A stretch of DNA of 21,094 nt. It comes from a virus. Below the pieces are notes generated by a model. The model saw only the letters and a program-made list of their open reading frames with translations. It was not told the origin of the DNA and did not search any database. Where the stretch lies: the IMG/VR virus record IMGVR_UViG_3300036832_000700, positions 1 through 21,094 of that record; one strand, written 5' to 3'. A program made the position numbers and the translations under genes. The first letter of the stretch is position 1. Every line of letters begins with the position of its first letter. Positions 2 to 15,833 of the stretch are shown here, piece by piece.

Positions 2-1219
2 TGGGAGATCTGGGACCGGCCGAACCGGCGGATCATCTGGATGGTGCGCGACATGGGCGGCATCGTCTTCCGCGTCGACGGCGACACCTACAATCTCACC
101 GGTTTTTACCCGATCCCCAAGCCGATGTTGGCGGTGACAACGTCTGACACCCAGATCCCCCGGGCGTTTTATGATTTGTACGAGGATCTCGCCGACGACC
201 TCGACGAAACCAGCAAGCGCATCTCGCGGCTGATGAAGCAGATCAAGGTGCGCGGCGCCTACAATGCCGCCAATTCCGAGATCAAGGACATATTGACCGC
301 CGATGACCACAAGATGATCGCCGTCGCCGGCATCGACCTCGCTACCGGCGGGCTGCAGTCGCACATCTGGATGATGCCGATTTTGGAATTCATGAATGCC
401 CTCGACAAGCTGATCGCCGCCCGCGAGGTGCTGAAGAACGTCATCTACGAGGTGATGGGCATCAGCGACATCATGCGCGGCGCTACGAAGGCCAGTGAGA
501 CCGCCACCGCCCAGCGGATCAAGGGGGCGATGGGCATGGTGCGGCTCAGCGATCAGAAGGGCCAGGCCGCCAACTTCGTCACCGATTTGCTCAGAATGAA
601 GGCCGAACTGATTGCCGAGAATTTCGACCAGCAGACCTTGACGCTGATGACCGGCGAGGACGTCACCGACGAGGTGATGAATATCCTGCGCTCGGATTTC
701 CTCCGCACCTGCATGATCGACATCGAGGACGATTCGACGGTTTCGGCCGACGAGCAGGAAGAGCAGCAGTCGATGTCGATGGTGCTCGGCTCGCTCGGCC
801 AGATCATCCAGGGGACGATCCCGCTGATGCAGATCTTCCCCGATCCGATCGACGTCGGCCGGCTCAGCATTGCGATGATGAAGATGGCGCTGCACCCGAT
901 CCGCTATTCGCGCGGCGTCATCGAGCTGCTTGACGATTTCGAAGACCAACTGGAGGTCAAGGCGCAGCAGGCGGCCTTGCAGCAGGCGATGCAGCCGCCG
1001 CCGATGCCTCCAGGCCTTCCACCGCCGGGGATGGCTTCGCAGCCCGCGCCACCGGCTGGCGGAGGACCGGGCGGTGACCTGCCGAGGCCGGCTGCCGCCC
1101 ACCCGCCGATGCATCCCGGCGGCCCGCTGATCCACGGCGGTGGCGTGCCCGCCGCCCCGCCGGGTCCGGTGCCCGGTCCGGGCGCACCACCGCCAGGAGG
1201 CGGCCCACAACTGCAATAG
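2..1219 (+). CDS. Phage portal protein, C-terminal part (5' end outside window)
   Basis: The reading frame is open from the first bases of the window, so this is the 3' part of a longer gene (about 405 codons visible). The opening residues (EIWDRPNRRIIWMVRD, then DGDTYNLTGFYPIPKP) match the style of podovirus portal proteins, which form the dodecameric ring through which DNA enters and leaves the capsid. The middle (FMNALDKLIAAREVLKNVIYEVMGISDIMRGATKASETATAQ, read in pieces) is the helical wing/stem-like region typical of the family. From about 963 the protein becomes a low-complexity tail of Pro, Gly, Ala and Met of roughly 85 residues, unusual for a portal C-terminus. It is followed 9 bp later by the next gene. 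The family call is secure by sequence style and by position ahead of scaffold and capsid; the role of the tail is unknown. Confidence 0.85.
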   Translation, partial: WEIWDRPNRRIIWMVRDMGGIVFRVDGDTYNLTGFYPIPKPMLAVTTSDTQIPRAFYDLYEDLADDLDETSKRISRLMKQIKVRGAYNAANSEIKDILTADDHKMIAVAGIDLATGGLQSHIWMMPILEFMNALDKLIAAREVLKNVIYEVMGISDIMRGATKASETATAQRIKGAMGMVRLSDQKGQAANFVTDLLRMKAELIAENFDQQTLTLMTGEDVTDEVMNILRSDFLRTCMIDIEDDSTVSADEQEEQQSMSMVLGSLGQIIQGTIPLMQIFPDPIDVGRLSIAMMKMALHPIRYSRGVIELLDDFEDQLEVKAQQAALQQAMQPPPMPPGLPPPGMASQPAPPAGGGPGGDLPRPAAAHPPMHPGGPLIHGGGVPAAPPGPVPGPGAPPPGGGPQLQ

Positions 1220-1228
1220 GAGATGACC

Positions 1229-1504
1229 ATGGCCAAGTCCCACGACCGCGACAATGACCCCGCCGACGAGACGGCTCCGAAGCCGATCCTGCCCGACGAC
1301 CTGAAGCCTGCCGATGGCGGCAAGACCGGCCCGGTCGGCAAGGCGGTCCAGCCGACCCGCGCCACCACCATCGAGGAGGAGGGCATCGGTGATCGCGATC
1401 CCTACCCCGAGGGCAACCCGCCGACGTCGCAGACGACCGAAAACTCGCCGATGGCGCCGACCCACCAGAACGTCAACACCCTGCACCCGGACGCCGCCCC
1501 ATGA
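1229..1504 (+). CDS. Small acidic hypothetical protein
   Basis: A 91-residue hydrophilic protein rich in Asp, Pro, Thr and Glu (MAKSHDRDNDPADETAPK at the start), with no hydrophobic segment and no domain I recognise. Two in-frame ATG codons exist, at 1223 and 1229. AGGAG at 1218-1222 touches the first but lies 6 nt before the second, so 1229 is preferred. It ends in an ATGA overlap with the next gene, which points to translational coupling. Composition suggests an intrinsically disordered protein. Its place between portal and scaffold suggests a head-associated or accessory role, but nothing in the sequence shows which. Confidence 0.65.
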   Translation: MAKSHDRDNDPADETAPKPILPDDLKPADGGKTGPVGKAVQPTRATTIEEEGIGDRDPYPEGNPPTSQTTENSPMAPTHQNVNTLHPDAAP

Positions 1505-2088
1505 CCCAGACCATGCCCTTGCCGATCACCGCGGCGATGCTGGCGCTCGCCAACCCGAATGCCGGTAGGCCGCGCTACAACACCCCGGCCGACTGGGCTG
1601 GCGGCGTTTCCGGTGACGATGTTGCAGTGTCGACCGCCAATGTCGCCATCGGCCGCGCCTGCGACAGCGGCAGCAATCCCGACTATGCGCCGCGCACCCA
1701 GGTGCAGAAGGCTGGCCTTGCCAACCTGACGCCCGGCACGGTGATGGCGACGATTGTCACCCGCAAGCGCGGCTGGATCGCCGTCCGCCAGCCGTACAGC
1801 GCCCGACCGGTGTCGCCGGCTGGCGACCCGACGATCACTTCGCTCAACCCGAATACCGGCGTGCATGGCGGCGTCAACGTCATGGTGGCGATCACCGGCA
1901 CCAACTTCACCCCATACTCCGACGTCTATGTCGGCGGTTCGGCGGCGCCGTTCCTCTATGCCCGCTACATCTCGCCGACCGAGATCGACATCCTGATGGA
2001 TTGCGGCCGGTCGATCGCCGGTGTCGCGACGGTGCAGGTGTTCGACCATGGGGTGATGACGGCGCCGACCAATTTCACCATCACATAG
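1501..2088 (+). CDS. IPT/TIG (Ig-like) domain protein, possible virion decoration
   Basis: A 195-residue protein. Residues from about 110 to the end form an IPT/TIG-type Ig-like beta sandwich: PTITSLNPNTGVHGG, then VMVAITGTNFTP, VYVGGSAAPF and a final hydrophobic strand (APTNFTIT). These match the family pattern of a Pro-x-Ser-Pro-like opening, a Gly-rich turn and the 'G-x-F/N-F' strand. The first 100 residues are not recognised; they contain TPGTVMATIVTRKRGWIAVRQP, which may be a second small beta domain. There is no signal peptide. Start is by ATGA overlap with the upstream gene and there is no clear ribosome binding site. Ig-like domains are common on phage heads and tails, where they bind weakly to cell surfaces, so a decoration role is an inference. 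Confidence 0.75.
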   Translation: MTQTMPLPITAAMLALANPNAGRPRYNTPADWAGGVSGDDVAVSTANVAIGRACDSGSNPDYAPRTQVQKAGLANLTPGTVMATIVTRKRGWIAVRQPYSARPVSPAGDPTITSLNPNTGVHGGVNVMVAITGTNFTPYSDVYVGGSAAPFLYARYISPTEIDILMDCGRSIAGVATVQVFDHGVMTAPTNFTIT

Positions 2089-2104
2089 AATAAGGAGTGA
2101 GGAG

Positions 2105-2314
2105 ATGGCAGTGCAGACGCTGCCGCGGACCAGTTCGGCGATCTCTAGGGCCGTCTATGACGATGCGGCGCGGATGCTGTTCGTCACCTTCGTCAAGGAC
2201 GGCCTGACCTATGTCTATAAAAACGTGCCGCAGTCGGAATACGACGGCCTCGCCAGTGCCGGCTCGGTCGGCCAGTATTTCAATGCCCACATCCGCGACA
2301 GCTACGCGACATGA
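2105..2314 (+). CDS. KTSC domain protein
   Basis: A 69-residue protein that is almost entirely a KTSC domain. It has the typical layout: a Ser-x-x-Ile/Val opening (SSAISRAVYDDAARMLFVTF), a beta hairpin with TYVYKNVPQSEYDGL, and the closing SVGQYFNAHIRDSY, which corresponds to the family's 'G..fn..Ir..y' ending. The domain is named for a KTSC motif in some members; here that position is changed. KTSC proteins are found in many phages and bacteria and their biochemical role is not settled. The ribosome binding site region is AAGGAG followed by GAGG just before the ATG. The stop overlaps the next start (ATGA). Confidence 0.8.
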   Translation: MAVQTLPRTSSAISRAVYDDAARMLFVTFVKDGLTYVYKNVPQSEYDGLASAGSVGQYFNAHIRDSYAT

Positions 2315-2568
2315 GCAATCCGCGCGACATCGTGCCGAAATTCGGCCTGCCCTACGACTACGAAACCGGGCTGTTGTTGACAGATCACCAGATTGCGCGC
2401 ATCGAGAGAATAAAGGAAGTGCACCGCATGGTGCTGGCGGTGCTGCACGATTGCGAAGGCTCGGCGCCCGGCAACCCGACCTTCAACAGCGAGCGGATGC
2501 GCCAGGCATCGACGCAACTCGAACTGGCGATGATGCTGGCCAAAAAGGGAGCACTGGAAAACCCGTGA
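2311..2568 (+). CDS. Acb2/Tad1-like hairpin protein (candidate anti-CBASS / anti-Thoeris sponge)
   Basis: An 85-residue, mostly helical protein. Residues about 28-50 (HQIARIERIKEVHRMVLAVL) form a first helix, followed by a loop (DCEGSAPGNPTFN). The second helix (ERMRQASTQLELAMMLAKKG, then ALENP) fits the remembered consensus of the Acb2/Tad1 hairpin family, of the form 'S-R-E-x-S-L-A-x-T-x-L-E-E-A-x-M-W-A-N-A-x-I-A-R-N-E'. Shared positions are A, T, L-E, A-M, A and the terminal N. Known members bind cyclic nucleotides (CBASS and Thoeris signals) and so block host abortive immunity. Differences here are a longer inter-helix loop and loss of the common Trp. The call rests on recalled family pattern and on context among small accessory genes; binding activity is an inference. 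Confidence 0.55.
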   Translation: MSNPRDIVPKFGLPYDYETGLLLTDHQIARIERIKEVHRMVLAVLHDCEGSAPGNPTFNSERMRQASTQLELAMMLAKKGALENP

Positions 2569-2855
2569 CGGTCTGGGTCATTCGTGACGGCAAGCTGGTC
2601 GATAAGGCAAGCCTTTATCGTCATGAGCCGGTGAGCGGATTTCCGACGCCGCGCATTTCCAGAATCGAGCCGTTCATCTCGCCGATCGATGACAAGGAGA
2701 TCAGCAGTTGGGGCGCCCGTGACCGGCACATGAAGGAGCACGACTGTTTCGACCCGCGCGACCTCGGCAAGGACCACCAATGGCGGCGCGGCCGCGAGGT
2801 ACAATTGAAGGAGGCCCAGGAGGCCAAGGACGATGGCAGCTTCGAATGGCGTTGA
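2565..2855 (+). CDS. Hypothetical protein of the portal-scaffold interval
   Basis: A 96-residue protein starting at GTG 2565 in a GTGA overlap with the upstream gene. A longer in-frame extension upstream exists but would overlap two good genes, so it was not used. It opens TVWVIRDGKLVDKASLY, a short beta hairpin, and continues with a Pro-rich segment (PRISRIEPFISPIDDKEISS). The end is charged and probably helical (HQWRRGREVQLKEAQEAKDD). Small proteins with this 'W-V-x-R-D-G-K-L-V' opening recur just before scaffold genes in phages of proteobacteria, but I know no function. Its last 23 bp overlap the scaffold gene and carry that gene's AGGAGG. Confidence 0.7.
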   Translation: MTVWVIRDGKLVDKASLYRHEPVSGFPTPRISRIEPFISPIDDKEISSWGARDRHMKEHDCFDPRDLGKDHQWRRGREVQLKEAQEAKDDGSFEWR

Positions 2856-4026
2856 TGGCATCGGCAATGGCGCCGACACATCGGCCCCGGCGCCCGACGA
2901 CAAGCCACAATCGTTAAGAGACGTCGCCGAACAGGCGTGGGACGACCTCGAGGCCGAGGCCGACGAGGAAGAGTCGCAATCATCACCGCAGCCACGCGAC
3001 GACGGTCGCGACGAGCGCGGCCGCTGGGTGGCCAAACACCCAGAAACCATTCCGGGCGAGCAGACAGCAGTCCCAGCCCCGGCAGTACCACCGGCGTCTC
3101 CGCAACAACGGCCTGACCCAGCCTCGAGCAGTCAGCCGCCACAGCACTGGAGCCAGCAGGACCGCGACACCTTCGCCAGGTTGCCGAAGGAGGGCCAGGA
3201 CTTCCTTCTTCGTCGCCATACCGAAATGGAGCGGGACTACACGGCCAAGACGCAGGCCGCAGCGACAGCAGTTGAGTTTACCCAGGCCCTGACGCCGGTC
3301 TTCACCAATCCCGACCTGCAACGATCCCTGGTTGACCCGAATGGCCAGCCGGTCCACCCAGCCGAAGCGATCCGGCAGTGGGCCCAGGTGCACATGCGCG
3401 CCAGCCACCCCGATCCGCGAGTTCGAGCCGGATTGCTGCGAGACCTGGCCCAGGGCATGCAACTCAACCCAGCGGCAGTGTTCGGCCAGTCACAGCAGGG
3501 TTCACCGGTCCCCGGCATGACGCCGGAAGACCTCAAGGATCCCGCACTCCGTCAATTTGCCGACTACGTCGCCGACACCCACTCGGGGGTCGCGGCCCTT
3601 CGCAACGAACTGGACATGATCAAGCGGCAATCGGTCGAGCAGCAGAGATCTGCCGCCACTGCCGCCGCCAAGCAGGGAATTGATGCGTTTGCCGATGCTG
3701 TCGATCAGCAGGGCCGCAAGGTCTATCCGTATTTCGACGCCGTGCTGCCGGAATTGATGGATCTCTATCGCGCCAATCCTGCCCGCGACCTGCGTGAAGC
3801 CTATGATACTGCCTGTCGGATGTCGGCGACCGTCTGGGGGCAGATCCAGCAGGCTCAGTCGTCACAATCGCGACGACAGCAGGACAATGCCCGTGCCGCC
3901 GCCGCCGCCCGTGGGAACATCCGCGGACGAACGGCGCCGGTGTCGAAGGGCGATCAATCCGGTTCGCCGCAAGGACTGCGCGCCGCCCTGGAGGCAGCCG
4001 CCGACGAGGTCGGTTTCGAGGGCTGA
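2833..4026 (+). CDS. Head scaffolding protein
   Basis: A 397-residue highly polar protein directly before the major capsid gene, as expected of a scaffold that templates procapsid assembly and then leaves. The first 100 residues are acidic and disordered (AEADEEESQSSPQPRDD) and contain the RDERGRWVAKH-type motif seen in many scaffold N-termini. Residues about 103-215 form an ordered helical part (QHWSQQDRDTFARLP, then FLLRRHTEMERDYTAKTQ, then HPAEAIRQWAQVHMRA). The rest is helical and Ala/Gln-rich, ending in a basic disordered tail (RGNIRGRTAPVSKGD) and a short acidic terminus. AGGAGG at 2818-2823 is 9 nt before the ATG. The identification rests on composition, motif style and position. Confidence 0.85.
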   Translation: MAASNGVDGIGNGADTSAPAPDDKPQSLRDVAEQAWDDLEAEADEEESQSSPQPRDDGRDERGRWVAKHPETIPGEQTAVPAPAVPPASPQQRPDPASSSQPPQHWSQQDRDTFARLPKEGQDFLLRRHTEMERDYTAKTQAAATAVEFTQALTPVFTNPDLQRSLVDPNGQPVHPAEAIRQWAQVHMRASHPDPRVRAGLLRDLAQGMQLNPAAVFGQSQQGSPVPGMTPEDLKDPALRQFADYVADTHSGVAALRNELDMIKRQSVEQQRSAATAAAKQGIDAFADAVDQQGRKVYPYFDAVLPELMDLYRANPARDLREAYDTACRMSATVWGQIQQAQSSQSRRQQDNARAAAAARGNIRGRTAPVSKGDQSGSPQGLRAALEAAADEVGFEG

Positions 4027-4044
4027 TAGCCCCGGGAGCCGAAC

Positions 4045-4998
4045 ATGGCGTCGCCAAACAACATCACCAACCTGATCGCCACGACGATCAACAACTACGT
4101 CAAGACGTTTCAAGATAACGTCAGCAATTCCAACGCCCTGACCGCCATGCTGAGGATGGGCGATAGAATAAGGACAGTAGACGGCGGCAAGACCGTCAGT
4201 TGCACCCTGCAATACGCGGCGGAAACCTTCGCCTGGTACCAGGGCACCGACCTGTTGTCGCGGGCATTGGCGGAGACGATCTCCGAGGCCGACTTCGACC
4301 CGGCCAATGCGGTGGCGAGCGTCACCATCTCCGGGCCGGACCTTGCCAAGAATGCCGGCAAGGAGCGGATCCTCAATCTGCTCGAAGGCAAGATGGACAA
4401 CGCCCAGAACACGATGAACAACAACATCACCAAGGCGATCTATGGTGATGGAACGCTGGCGAAATCCTTCGCCGGCCTCAAGGCCTTCGTCACCGACAAC
4501 GGCACCGGCGTCGTCGGCGGCATCGACGCCAGCACCTGGCCGTTCTGGGCCAACCAGTTCCAGCCGCTGACGCTCGGCACCGGCCTGACCTATGCGGTCT
4601 TGAAGGCCGGGATGAACTCGCTGTGGATGAAACTGATCCGCGGCACCGAGCACCCCGACCTGGTGGTGATGGATAGCATGCTGTATTCGACCTACGAGGG
4701 CGGACTGCAGGAAAATCAGCGGTTCGGCGATGCCAAGCTGGGCGGCCTCGGATTCGAAACCTTGAAGTACAAGCAGGCGTCGGCAGTGTTCGACGGGACG
4801 CCGACCGGGCTTGCCGGCGGCTATATGCTGAATACCAAATATTTGAAACTGGAGGCTTACACCGGCCGCAATTTCCAGCCGCTGGACGTGCCGGATCAGA
4901 CCCCCGACATGGATGCCGTCACCCACCACATTGCCTTCATGGGCGGCCTGACGCTTGCCAACCGGGCGATGCAGGGTCGGTTGCAAGTCCCGGCTTGA
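4045..4998 (+). CDS. Major capsid protein
   Basis: A 317-residue protein with the look of a HK97-fold coat protein of podovirus/siphovirus type. The N-terminal helix region (ITNLIATTINNYVKTFQDN) is followed by a long spine-like segment with TVSCTLQYAAETFAWYQG. Next comes an E-loop/P-domain stretch (ILNLLEGKMDNAQNTMNN), then AIYGDGT leading to FAGLKAFV, a motif frequent in phage coat proteins. A later A-domain contains HPDLVVMDSMLYSTYEG, with YKQASAVFDGTP and a C-terminal KYLKLEAYTGRNFQP. It follows the scaffold by 18 bp and has a GGGAG-type ribosome binding site. A hairpin lies just downstream. The call is strong by position and sequence style. Confidence 0.92.
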   Translation: MASPNNITNLIATTINNYVKTFQDNVSNSNALTAMLRMGDRIRTVDGGKTVSCTLQYAAETFAWYQGTDLLSRALAETISEADFDPANAVASVTISGPDLAKNAGKERILNLLEGKMDNAQNTMNNNITKAIYGDGTLAKSFAGLKAFVTDNGTGVVGGIDASTWPFWANQFQPLTLGTGLTYAVLKAGMNSLWMKLIRGTEHPDLVVMDSMLYSTYEGGLQENQRFGDAKLGGLGFETLKYKQASAVFDGTPTGLAGGYMLNTKYLKLEAYTGRNFQPLDVPDQTPDMDAVTHHIAFMGGLTLANRAMQGRLQVPA

Positions 4999-5036
4999 TT
5001 GATCGCGTTTCGTTTCGCCGAACCTGGCGCGATCAT

Positions 5037-5079
5037 GGAGGAGGCCGGTCGATCCGACATCTGTTGGCTGGCCTCCTTC
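5037..5079 (+). terminator. Strong hairpin after the capsid gene (terminator or processing site)
   Basis: The 111-bp gap between capsid and the next gene holds an imperfect inverted repeat. Arm 5037-5052 (GGAGGAGGCCGGTCGA) pairs along all 16 positions with arm 5064-5079 (TTGGCTGGCCTCCTTC), counting four G-T wobbles, around an 11-nt loop. No run of T follows, so it is not a classic intrinsic terminator. It could weaken read-through, or stabilise the 3' end of the capsid message and so raise capsid yield over later genes. The remaining bases of the gap hold only the ribosome binding site (AGAGGAG at 5096-5102) of the next gene. Confidence 0.55.
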
Positions 5080-5109
5080 GCCCCTCAAACGGCGTAGAGG
5101 AGAAAAAGC

Positions 5110-5646
5110 ATGTCTTCGGAAACCCCGCTGCTGGTGACCTTCTGGCGTGGCTCGCAGCCCACCGGCGTCAATTCCAAGGACGGCCTGCCGGTGTTCAAGT
5201 CGTGCGTGATGATCACCGTCGCCCGGCCGCCGTGGCTGAAGCTTGATCGCGTCGCCACCGAGGAAGAGATGGAGCTTTATGGCGACGCCTACAAGGCGTT
5301 CCTGAAGACCGACCACGCCCGGTCGCCGAATCTCGAGGGCTATCCGCTGGCCAACTGGCCGGTGATCACCGCCGCCCGCCTCGACATGTTCGCCGCCCGT
5401 GACATCTTCACCGTCGAGCAATTGGCGAAGATCAGCGGCCGCCGCGACCTGCCGCCCGACATGCTGGAGATCGCCGGGCGCGCCAAGGCCTTCGTCGAGA
5501 TGCAGAATTCCACCGGCAAGTACGAGACGCTGGTCAGGGAAAAGGACCAGGTGATCGAGGCGCTCAGCGAAGAAAACACCCACCTGAAGCGCGAGCTGAC
5601 CAAGGCGACCCAGACGCTCAACCTGCTGCGCGAGAAGGTGGCGTAA
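5110..5646 (+). CDS. Hypothetical protein with C-terminal coiled coil, post-capsid position
   Basis: A 178-residue protein. The first 60 residues look beta-rich (PLLVTFWRGSQPTG, then FKSCVMITVARPPWLKL) and the middle is mixed. The last 50 residues form a clear coiled coil with heptad spacing (EKDQVIEALSEENTHLKREL and on to NLLREKVA). The segment WPVITAARLDMFAARDIFTVEQLAKISG resembles a small helix-hairpin module that often follows capsid genes in alphaproteobacterial phages, but I cannot name the family. AGAGGAG sits 7 nt before the ATG. The position suggests a head completion or capsid-associated factor; this is inference. Confidence 0.7.
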   Translation: MSSETPLLVTFWRGSQPTGVNSKDGLPVFKSCVMITVARPPWLKLDRVATEEEMELYGDAYKAFLKTDHARSPNLEGYPLANWPVITAARLDMFAARDIFTVEQLAKISGRRDLPPDMLEIAGRAKAFVEMQNSTGKYETLVREKDQVIEALSEENTHLKRELTKATQTLNLLREKVA

Positions 5647-13610: not shown

Positions 13611-15833
13611 ATGCCGACGCGTGACGATCTGGCAGTCTATAATCCGGCCCGTGCCTCGACCGACACGTCGCTGCCGACCGGCTATGCGCCATGGTCGCAG
13701 GTCACCAGCTACACGCCGTCGACTGGCGAGAACATCGGCAACTGGCTGCACAACCTGACCGGCTCGCGCTCGATCGCCGACAAGGCCGAGATGGGCTGGG
13801 GGATGACGCCGATGGCGGCGGCCGAGGATGCCGGCTATCTCGGTGGATCCGGTGCCAAGACCCAGGCGGCGATCTCTGCCATCGGTGCAATCCCCGAGGC
13901 TGGCAAGGCCTTAGCGGTCGGTGGTCATGGCCTGGCGATGTTCCTCGGCCCGAGGTCACAATTGTTCGACCGCAAGATGGCCGATCTCGCCCAGGAGATG
14001 GCGTCCAAGGGCGCAACCCGTGACGAAATCTGGAAGGCGACCGGCAGCGACAAGATCGCCGGCACGATGCTGGGACCACGCGGCGAGCCGATGCAGGAAA
14101 TCAGCGACGTCGGCGCCCGATTCAACGATCCATCGGCCTACAGTGACAAGGCCCCCGATTTTACCGCCGGCGATGTCTTCCACCATCCGGCCGGTTACGA
14201 GGCCTATCCAGAACTGGCAAACACGGAATTTAACTGGCGCAACTCTGCCAACGTCCACGGCTCCTACACCAGGGGCGATCCGCCTTCCGGCTACCCGCCG
14301 ACCGCCGAGGTCAGCCTGTACGCTCCTGACAAACCTGGCACAATGCTGCACGAGAATTTCACCCACGGCGTCCAGGACATCGAGAACTGGCCGAAGGGCG
14401 GCAACACCAATTTCCTCAACCCCGGTACCCCGGCGTGGGACATCTATCAGGAGCGGCTGAAGGCGATCAACACGCCGATGTCGCCCCAGACGTTCGAGTC
14501 ATCCGGCCTATCGGACCCGCAGTTCACCTACGACGACTACCTGAAGCAGCACAACGACGCGCTGAAGAACCCGACGCATTCCCGCATGCTCGATCGCGTG
14601 GCGCAGGAGGAGGCGGTCAACGAGGCCTACCAGCGCAGCGCAGGCGAGGCGCAGGCCCGCAACGTGCAGGCCCGCAAGGACATGACGCTCGACCAACTGA
14701 AGGCGACACCGCCGTGGGAGACGCAGGACATCCCCACCGACCGGCAGATCGCGACCTATCCGAGAGATGCTGGCCCGCAATTTTCGCGCACCGACCTCGC
14801 CGGCCAGATGCTGCGGGATTACCCCGGCGATCCGGCGGCGGTGACGCCGAAGGGCAAGAACCCTGAATGGTTCCACGGTGTCAGCGGTGGCCCGAAACTG
14901 CCGACACCGTTCAGCGAACTGACCTCGACCACGGTTCCGACTGAAGGCTCGGCGATGCTGGCTGACAAGCCGATGTCGCCGGAAGATTTTCAAAGGAACA
15001 GTTGGCTGCTGCCGCTCTATGGCGACAAGTCAATTGCCGGCCAGACGCTCGTCGACGTCAACGGACAACCGCTGGCGACACCGCAGAATCTTGGTGGTGG
15101 TGGCCGGTTCATGCAGGCAAACCCCGGCGCGTTGTGGGCATCTGATCAAAGCAAGGGCACGAAGATCACCGGCAAAGTGCAGGCGTTGGAGCAGGAGAGC
15201 GGTCTGCCGGTCAATGCGACCCATGTGATAATGGGACCGACCAGTGGCGATTTCGCTCACATGACGGCCCGCCCACTGCTTCAGTTGACCGACCAGAAGG
15301 CGATTAGCAGTGACCAGGCAAGAGCCTTCGACGATCGCATGGTCGCTGAGGGTGTGAATAACTGGCCAGGCATCAGGAACGTTGGCGAGGACTGGCTTAA
15401 CGCGCCAGGCACCCATCGGGCGGCATTGGCCAAGACGATGCAGTTGGCGCCGTTCGCCAATGACCCGGCATTTGGCAATGTTGCCGCGGTTCGCAAGGCG
15501 ATCACCGAACCGGAACTGATGCACGCGCCGATGCTGACCAGCGGCATGACGGTCGGGCAGTTTGCCCCCGGCGGCGCGGTTGTGCCGGGTGCCGGTACGC
15601 ATGAGACCTATAATACCGACTGGCTTGGCCAGCATATCGGCAACATGGGACAGGTGCCGTTCAGCAAGATGTTCCCGGATGTGCTGTCAGGATATCTGGC
15701 GAAGAATCCGGCGCTGGCAGGTAATCTGCCGACGATAGGCTACTCGGTCGAGCGGCAGATACCGGCGCAAAAGCTTACCCAGCAGTGGCTGGACAACATC
15801 ATGCCGTGGTGGGAGAGGAGAAACTCTCAGTGA
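13611..15833 (+). CDS. Large 740-aa protein with zincin-like region; polyvalent-protein candidate
   Basis: A 740-residue protein with AAGGG 7 nt before the ATG. The N-terminal 100 residues include YAPWSQVTSYTPSTGENIGN and two hydrophobic stretches. Around residues 225-265 lies HGSYTRGDPPSGYPP, then EVSLYAPDKPGTMLHENFTH, then GVQDIENWPKGGN. This is close in style to predicted zincin-like domains of phage polyvalent proteins, which read 'L-H-E-x-x-H-G-V/I-Q....G-G'. Here the motif is H247-E248-N-F-T-H252, one residue too long for HExxH. The middle is helical and charged. The C-terminal 300 residues (GGGGRFMQANPGALWASDQS near residue 496, then VNATHVIMGPTSGDFAHMT) look like another enzyme-like or structural domain that I cannot name. 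It is flanked by two opposed small genes. Function is unknown. Confidence 0.6.
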   Translation: MPTRDDLAVYNPARASTDTSLPTGYAPWSQVTSYTPSTGENIGNWLHNLTGSRSIADKAEMGWGMTPMAAAEDAGYLGGSGAKTQAAISAIGAIPEAGKALAVGGHGLAMFLGPRSQLFDRKMADLAQEMASKGATRDEIWKATGSDKIAGTMLGPRGEPMQEISDVGARFNDPSAYSDKAPDFTAGDVFHHPAGYEAYPELANTEFNWRNSANVHGSYTRGDPPSGYPPTAEVSLYAPDKPGTMLHENFTHGVQDIENWPKGGNTNFLNPGTPAWDIYQERLKAINTPMSPQTFESSGLSDPQFTYDDYLKQHNDALKNPTHSRMLDRVAQEEAVNEAYQRSAGEAQARNVQARKDMTLDQLKATPPWETQDIPTDRQIATYPRDAGPQFSRTDLAGQMLRDYPGDPAAVTPKGKNPEWFHGVSGGPKLPTPFSELTSTTVPTEGSAMLADKPMSPEDFQRNSWLLPLYGDKSIAGQTLVDVNGQPLATPQNLGGGGRFMQANPGALWASDQSKGTKITGKVQALEQESGLPVNATHVIMGPTSGDFAHMTARPLLQLTDQKAISSDQARAFDDRMVAEGVNNWPGIRNVGEDWLNAPGTHRAALAKTMQLAPFANDPAFGNVAAVRKAITEPELMHAPMLTSGMTVGQFAPGGAVVPGAGTHETYNTDWLGQHIGNMGQVPFSKMFPDVLSGYLAKNPALAGNLPTIGYSVERQIPAQKLTQQWLDNIMPWWERRNSQ

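Follow-up and report, generated by a model that had tools for sequence, protein, structure and literature searches.

The closest described relatives of the protein considered here are small phage proteins built on a helical hairpin, and the Pfam family PF24729 is named for two of them, Acb2 and Tad1. Acb2 (anti-CBASS 2) is characterised by assembly as a homohexamer, by binding of cyclic di- and trinucleotides and by the blocking of CBASS. Vs.4/Acb2 of phage T4 (PDB 7uq2; PF24729; phrog_717) is a two-helix hairpin of 88 amino acids. Its variant Y8A has been described as binding-deficient, and T68M lowers the affinity (PMC12657230). Acb2 p26 of a Pseudomonas phage (PDB 8h2j, 8h2x) is also a hairpin, with a threonine at the same place in helix 2 and an N-terminal GY..(S/T) motif. 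Tad1 carries the hairpin as its C-terminal domain and has an N-terminal β-sheet domain (PMC12043709). A further group consists of short hairpin-only proteins (phrog_1454; Paenibacillus phage Tripp, Gordonia phage Chidiebere, Microbacterium phage Quhwah and mycobacteriophages), which have the same Pfam domain, start with F.YH..T and end with MWANA.IAR. No functional test of these short phage proteins was found in the literature searched.

Here, we compared these systems with an open reading frame in a window of 21,094 bases, which is the whole stretch of DNA analysed, from the IMG/VR virus record IMGVR_UViG_3300036832_000700. The frame is located at 2311-2568 on the plus strand, runs from ATG to TGA and encodes a protein of 85 amino acids that matches PF24729. 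Based on sequence comparison and on predicted structures, its putative function is that of a divergent Acb2-like sponge for nucleotide signals, made together with the head proteins, a reading to which we give a probability of roughly 0.55. Membership of the Acb2/Tad1 hairpin superfamily, which an earlier note on this DNA had proposed, is likely.

The gene belongs to a series that runs on one strand in the order portal, 93-residue frame, TIG, KTSC, hairpin, 96-residue protein, scaffold-like protein and major head protein. The series begins with the C-terminal part of the portal protein, which is cut by the edge of the window (41-1219; phrog_12082, E 1.7e-70). A frame of 93 amino acids separates it from a TIG/IPT-domain protein (1501-2088; PF01833, E 2.4e-9), and a KTSC-domain protein of 69 amino acids (2105-2314; PF13619, E 6.5e-20) comes directly before the hairpin gene. 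Downstream are a conserved small protein of 96 amino acids with a GTG start (2565-2855), which is found in all relatives with 41-58% identity, a protein called scaffold-like by its position and length only (2833-4026; 44-51% identity to relatives), and the major head protein (4045-4998; phrog_9953, E 4.7e-75). The placement of the frame among head genes, as the earlier note had it, is thereby confirmed. Elsewhere in the window, segment 10114-10863 encodes a transglycosylase-like domain (PF06737, E 6.8e-11), probably of a virion-associated wall enzyme, and a protein of 740 amino acids (13611-15833) has a weak match, under the cut-off, to LPD23, a large polyvalent protein domain (E 5e-4).

The hairpin gene overlaps both of its neighbours by four nucleotides, its start with the stop of the KTSC gene (ATGA) and its stop with the start of the 96-residue gene (GTGA). 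Orthologs occupy the same slot in five related virus contigs, L003, L004, L007, L015 and L016; the first two were reached through the head protein, and L007, then L015 and L016, through ortholog alignments. Because of the two overlaps and the five orthologs, the frame is a real gene and more than a chance frame. A scan of positions 900-5200 for sigma-70-like promoters found none. Judged from the genes, the hairpin gene is very probably transcribed within the head operon, since it overlaps on both sides and no sigma-70-like site was found. A separate early promoter for it was considered and rejected on these same grounds.

PF24729 was the only Pfam family matched by the window protein (E 3.2e-5), and its score of 24.5 bits lies just below the curated cut-off of 27 bits. 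Two orthologs exceed the cut-off (L004, 28.4 bits; L007, 27.1 bits), and the remaining three of the six sequences, L003, L015 and L016, gave no PF24729 match. Among the weak PHROG hits of the orthologs are phrog_717, which holds T4 Vs.4, and the two families that the short hairpins match, phrog_1454 and phrog_15810. A home-made PF24729 profile was built on 13 known members and controlled with 500 shuffles; the window protein scored 6.9 against 5.1 for the best shuffle, L004 14.6 against 8.9, and L007 14.4 against 8.2. The margin of L016 was slight (9.4 against 9.0), and neither L003 nor L015 exceeded its own shuffles. In the reverse search, T4 Vs.4 alone exceeded its own shuffles. When profiles were compared with hhalign, the alignment of the six orthologs scored 26.9 against the Vs.4-type alignment and 29.0 against a mixed PF24729 alignment, while 150 column shuffles reached maxima of 16.6 and 17.7, respectively. 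The family relationship thus has the support of the Pfam match, of the orthologs above the cut-off, of profile-profile scores that go beyond their shuffles, and of two predicted folds with Acb2 chains among their top PDB matches. The sequence scores do not separate Vs.4 from the short hairpins as the nearest branch.

Other searches were negative within their scope. The window protein had no significant sequence match to Pseudomonas Acb2 p26 and no match in PADLOC or NCBIfam. Neither tblastn of phages with P0001 and P0003, nor a search of viral contigs with the P0001 sequence, nor searches of genome contigs, for which the head protein and the ortholog alignment served as queries, gave a match; PDB sequences searched with P0001 and with alignments A1 and A3 gave no significant match. 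A match of L003 to LTXXQ (PF07813; E 0.012, under the cut-off) was set aside as noise of helix composition, as known hairpin proteins also match this family.

The structure of the window protein predicted by AlphaFold2 from the six-sequence alignment, as a single chain, is a helical hairpin of two long antiparallel helices, with a mean pLDDT of 83.4 and a pTM of 0.66; the block pLDDT is 84-94 over residues 21-80. By DSSP, helix 1 consists of residues 25-49 (2383-2457) and helix 2 of residues 61-83 (2491-2559), which carry Thr68. There is no strand of at least three residues, and the β-sheet domain that distinguishes Tad1 is absent from this protein of 85 amino acids. The model of the L007 ortholog, built from the same six sequences and so not fully independent, is alike. 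Among 350,542 PDB chains, the two best Foldseek matches of the window model were T4 Vs.4 with cGAMP, with E-values that are not significant (0.43 and 1.0) and probabilities of 0.90 and 0.51. In a viral structure library, 8 of the 27 top rows were named Acb2/Tad1 hairpin proteins. With the L007 model, Acb2/Vs.4 chains took PDB ranks 2, 4, 6, 10, 14, 18 and 26 (Foldseek E 2.1, not significant), and Pseudomonas Acb2 p26 was among the matches of both models. VIA-align gave the window model a Z of 7.1 to Vs.4 and of 6.5 to Acb2, and an unrelated helical hairpin reached 7.6. No single structural E-value is significant, and the evidence lies in the fact that the predicted models keep bringing up one small family. 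The earlier note had named the lack of a profile match together with a predicted fold other than an oligomer of helical hairpins as the outcome that would speak against the relationship; a profile match was found, and the predicted fold of the single chain is a helical hairpin.

Of the solved structures, T4 Vs.4 is the best match of the window model, though a weak one, and the two proteins share the helix-2 pattern A-x-T-x-L-x-x-A-x-M. In the window protein it reads A66-S-T68-x-L70-E71-x-A73-x-M75-A77, so that the family pattern seen earlier in this helix is real, and it is partly invariant in the orthologs. Residues invariant in all six sequences are P4, R5, D6, P14, E18, T19, G20, Q27, H46, G50, S51, R62, M63, E71, A73, M75, A77, K79 and E83. 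Residue 68 is threonine in the window protein, L004, L007 and L015, aspartate in L003 and isoleucine in L016. The common tryptophan, which Vs.4 has in helix 2, is missing as the earlier note had said; residue 76 is leucine in the window protein and methionine, tyrosine or phenylalanine in the orthologs. A long loop between the helices, which it had also described, holds in comparison with the short hairpin-only members and fails in comparison with Vs.4, where the inter-helix stretch is longer (77 residues against 58 profile positions in Vs.4, and 57 against 50 in the window protein).

The most distinct part of the protein is its N-terminal segment of residues 4-24 (2320-2382), defined from the ortholog alignment and mapped onto T4 Vs.4 by Pfam coordinates and hhalign. 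Vs.4 does not share this segment, whose pattern, PRD...[FWY].[VL]P..xETG..LT, is specific to the ortholog group; residue 11 is aromatic in all six sequences (F, W, Y, W, F, F). Neither the GY..(S/T) motif of Pseudomonas Acb2 nor the start and end motifs of the short hairpin-only proteins are found in the window protein. In the same mapping, Tyr8 of T4 Acb2 aligns with Gly20, which is invariant, and Thr68 of T4 aligns with Thr68. The sequences thus indicate that one residue that T4 Acb2 needs for binding, the N-terminal tyrosine, is absent and that another, the helix-2 threonine of the pocket, is kept. Since Tyr8 is replaced by an invariant glycine, the putative pocket cannot be the same as in T4 Acb2, and the window protein should not be filed as Acb2. 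It may nonetheless work like Acb2. As a conjecture, the missing stack could come from the N-terminal segment, a candidate replacement in which residue 11 is aromatic throughout.

The window hairpin protein is 38-41% identical to its orthologs, while the major head protein is 73-77% identical, so that, by these identities, the hairpin gene diverges much faster. Between the hairpin genes of L015 and L016, dN is 0.114 and dS 0.373, values that indicate purifying selection overall. In the same pair (L015 5649-5918, L016 5657-5926), residues 61-89 have about 15 non-synonymous and 5 synonymous changes and the earlier residues 6 and 14 (Fisher p 0.010), for a split chosen post hoc from the alignment of this single pair, with an insertion just downstream. 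This excess in helix 2 may reflect recombination or relaxed constraint.

The slot that holds the gene is variable, with the TIG gene as its left border and the scaffold-like gene in its right border region. Other relatives (L009-L013), which have closely similar head genes and a major head protein 68% identical, have an unrelated frame of 81 amino acids in the slot and no hairpin gene there, as read in L009 and L010. In L009 this frame (MDLTMADEPEVEPQ...) is located at 2992-3237, with the TIG gene on one side and the conserved gene for the small protein on the other; it is also seen in L010 and probably in L011-L013. In L015 and L016, the slot holds extra frames of 99, 83 and 61 amino acids, and the KTSC protein was above the cut-off in the window only, among 12 records searched (the window and 11 related). 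The interval between the TIG gene and the small-protein gene looks like an accessory-gene slot. Longer contigs of two of the relatives without the hairpin gene in the slot, G008 and G010, which are nearly identical to each other, encode a different PF24729 protein of 72 amino acids (44.3 bits) immediately ahead of the large terminase, on the reverse complement at 5054-5272 of L024 (G008:26000-38000) and at 4453-4671 of L025. In L003, L004, L015 and L016, where the terminase is covered, the slot gene is present and no PF24729 gene precedes the terminase. In this clade, each genome examined over both places therefore carries a single hairpin gene, at one or the other of these late positions. The hairpin gene behaves as an exchangeable accessory.

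A late structural position had been called unusual for such a gene, a view that the annotated phages contradict, since several of them have PF24729-type genes among packaging, portal or head genes. In a hand-picked sample, the gene lies between portal and major head protein in Microbacterium phage Quhwah, adjoins the portal gene in Gordonia phages Chidiebere and UBSmoodge, is upstream of the terminase in mycobacteriophages MalagasyRose, Nergal and Wintermute, and is found between spanin and terminase in E. coli phage 716R3. Several of the short hairpin-only proteins share this kind of place with the window gene. However, the genes of Paenibacillus phage Tripp and Gordonia phage JSwag are located in replication or nucleotide-metabolism regions, and that of T4 is near regB and the vs genes, unlike the head-gene position in the window. 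The position of PF24729 genes is thus free, as late and other regions both occur, and late positions recur. In Chidiebere (L032 2486-4777) and UBSmoodge (L028 3977-6280), the portal gene is followed, according to the annotation, by a short hairpin, an RNA ligase and a VIP2-like ADP-ribosyltransferase. With an RNA ligase beside a possible signal sponge, this group may represent a counter-defence cluster.

Three other explanations were weighed. Chance could make a protein that is short and helical resemble the PF24729 profile, and the score below the cut-off, the half of the ortholog group without a match and the weak Foldseek E-values fit this; we consider it improbable, as two orthologs pass the cut-off, the profile comparison goes well beyond its shuffles and Acb2 comes up with both models when all PDB chains are searched. 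The protein could instead take part in head assembly or be a minor virion protein, a hairpin that acts with portal, scaffold or capsid and whose likeness to Acb2 is only one of fold or ancient descent. A slot conserved amid head genes would also fit an assembly role: it lies between the TIG and small-protein genes in six contigs, two of which have additional small genes there, the window gene is tied to its neighbours by overlaps without a promoter-like site in 900-5200, and the helical hairpin is a common fold. Against such a role are the relatives that make a 68%-identical major head protein and have the unrelated 81-residue frame instead, the PF24729-type genes of replication regions, which show that the family also occurs away from head genes, and a divergence far above that of the head protein. 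We regard a head role as unlikely.

A third explanation keeps the protein in the hairpin superfamily and assumes that nucleotide binding was lost in favour of another task in host takeover, such as inhibition of a host protein by direct contact. It would account for the invariant Gly20 in place of Tyr8, for the missing tryptophan and for the new conserved N-terminal segment. However, the threonine whose change to methionine weakens T4 Acb2 (PMC12657230) is kept in the window protein and in three of the five orthologs, and in sister phages a different PF24729 gene takes its place, which points to a common task; we consider a loss of binding rather doubtful. The points that weigh against a signal sponge are the window score under the cut-off, the three unmatched sequences, the Foldseek E-values, a VIA-align score no better than that of an unrelated hairpin, L003 and L015 not rising above their shuffles, and the invariant glycine at the place of the T4 tyrosine.

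Under the sponge reading, the gene would be co-expressed with the head genes, and its product, a small helical hairpin, would form oligomers. The oligomer would bind, but not degrade, a nucleotide second messenger of a host defence such as CBASS, Thoeris or a similar system, and with the messenger sequestered the defence effector would stay off. If the signal arises together with the capsid protein, a sponge in the head operon would be well timed. A bolder and tentative version, which we think is unlikely in its full form, is that of a separate branch of hairpin sponges in which the tyrosine pocket has been replaced by the new segment (aromatic 11, ETG), and which would take up a signal other than those of Acb2 and Tad1, be made with the capsid and be present when capsid-linked signalling starts.

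With the relationship described here, the Acb2/Tad1 hairpin superfamily reaches a phage clade that is known, in this analysis, from environmental contigs. The ortholog set provides natural variants without a residue that T4 Acb2 needs for binding, and should these variants still bind a signal, viral sponges would take up a broader range of ligands than the current motifs suggest. Furthermore, a single clade has its hairpin genes in either of two late positions, before the terminase or between portal and capsid, and it thereby becomes possible to test whether expression at the time of the capsid makes a difference against capsid-linked defences.
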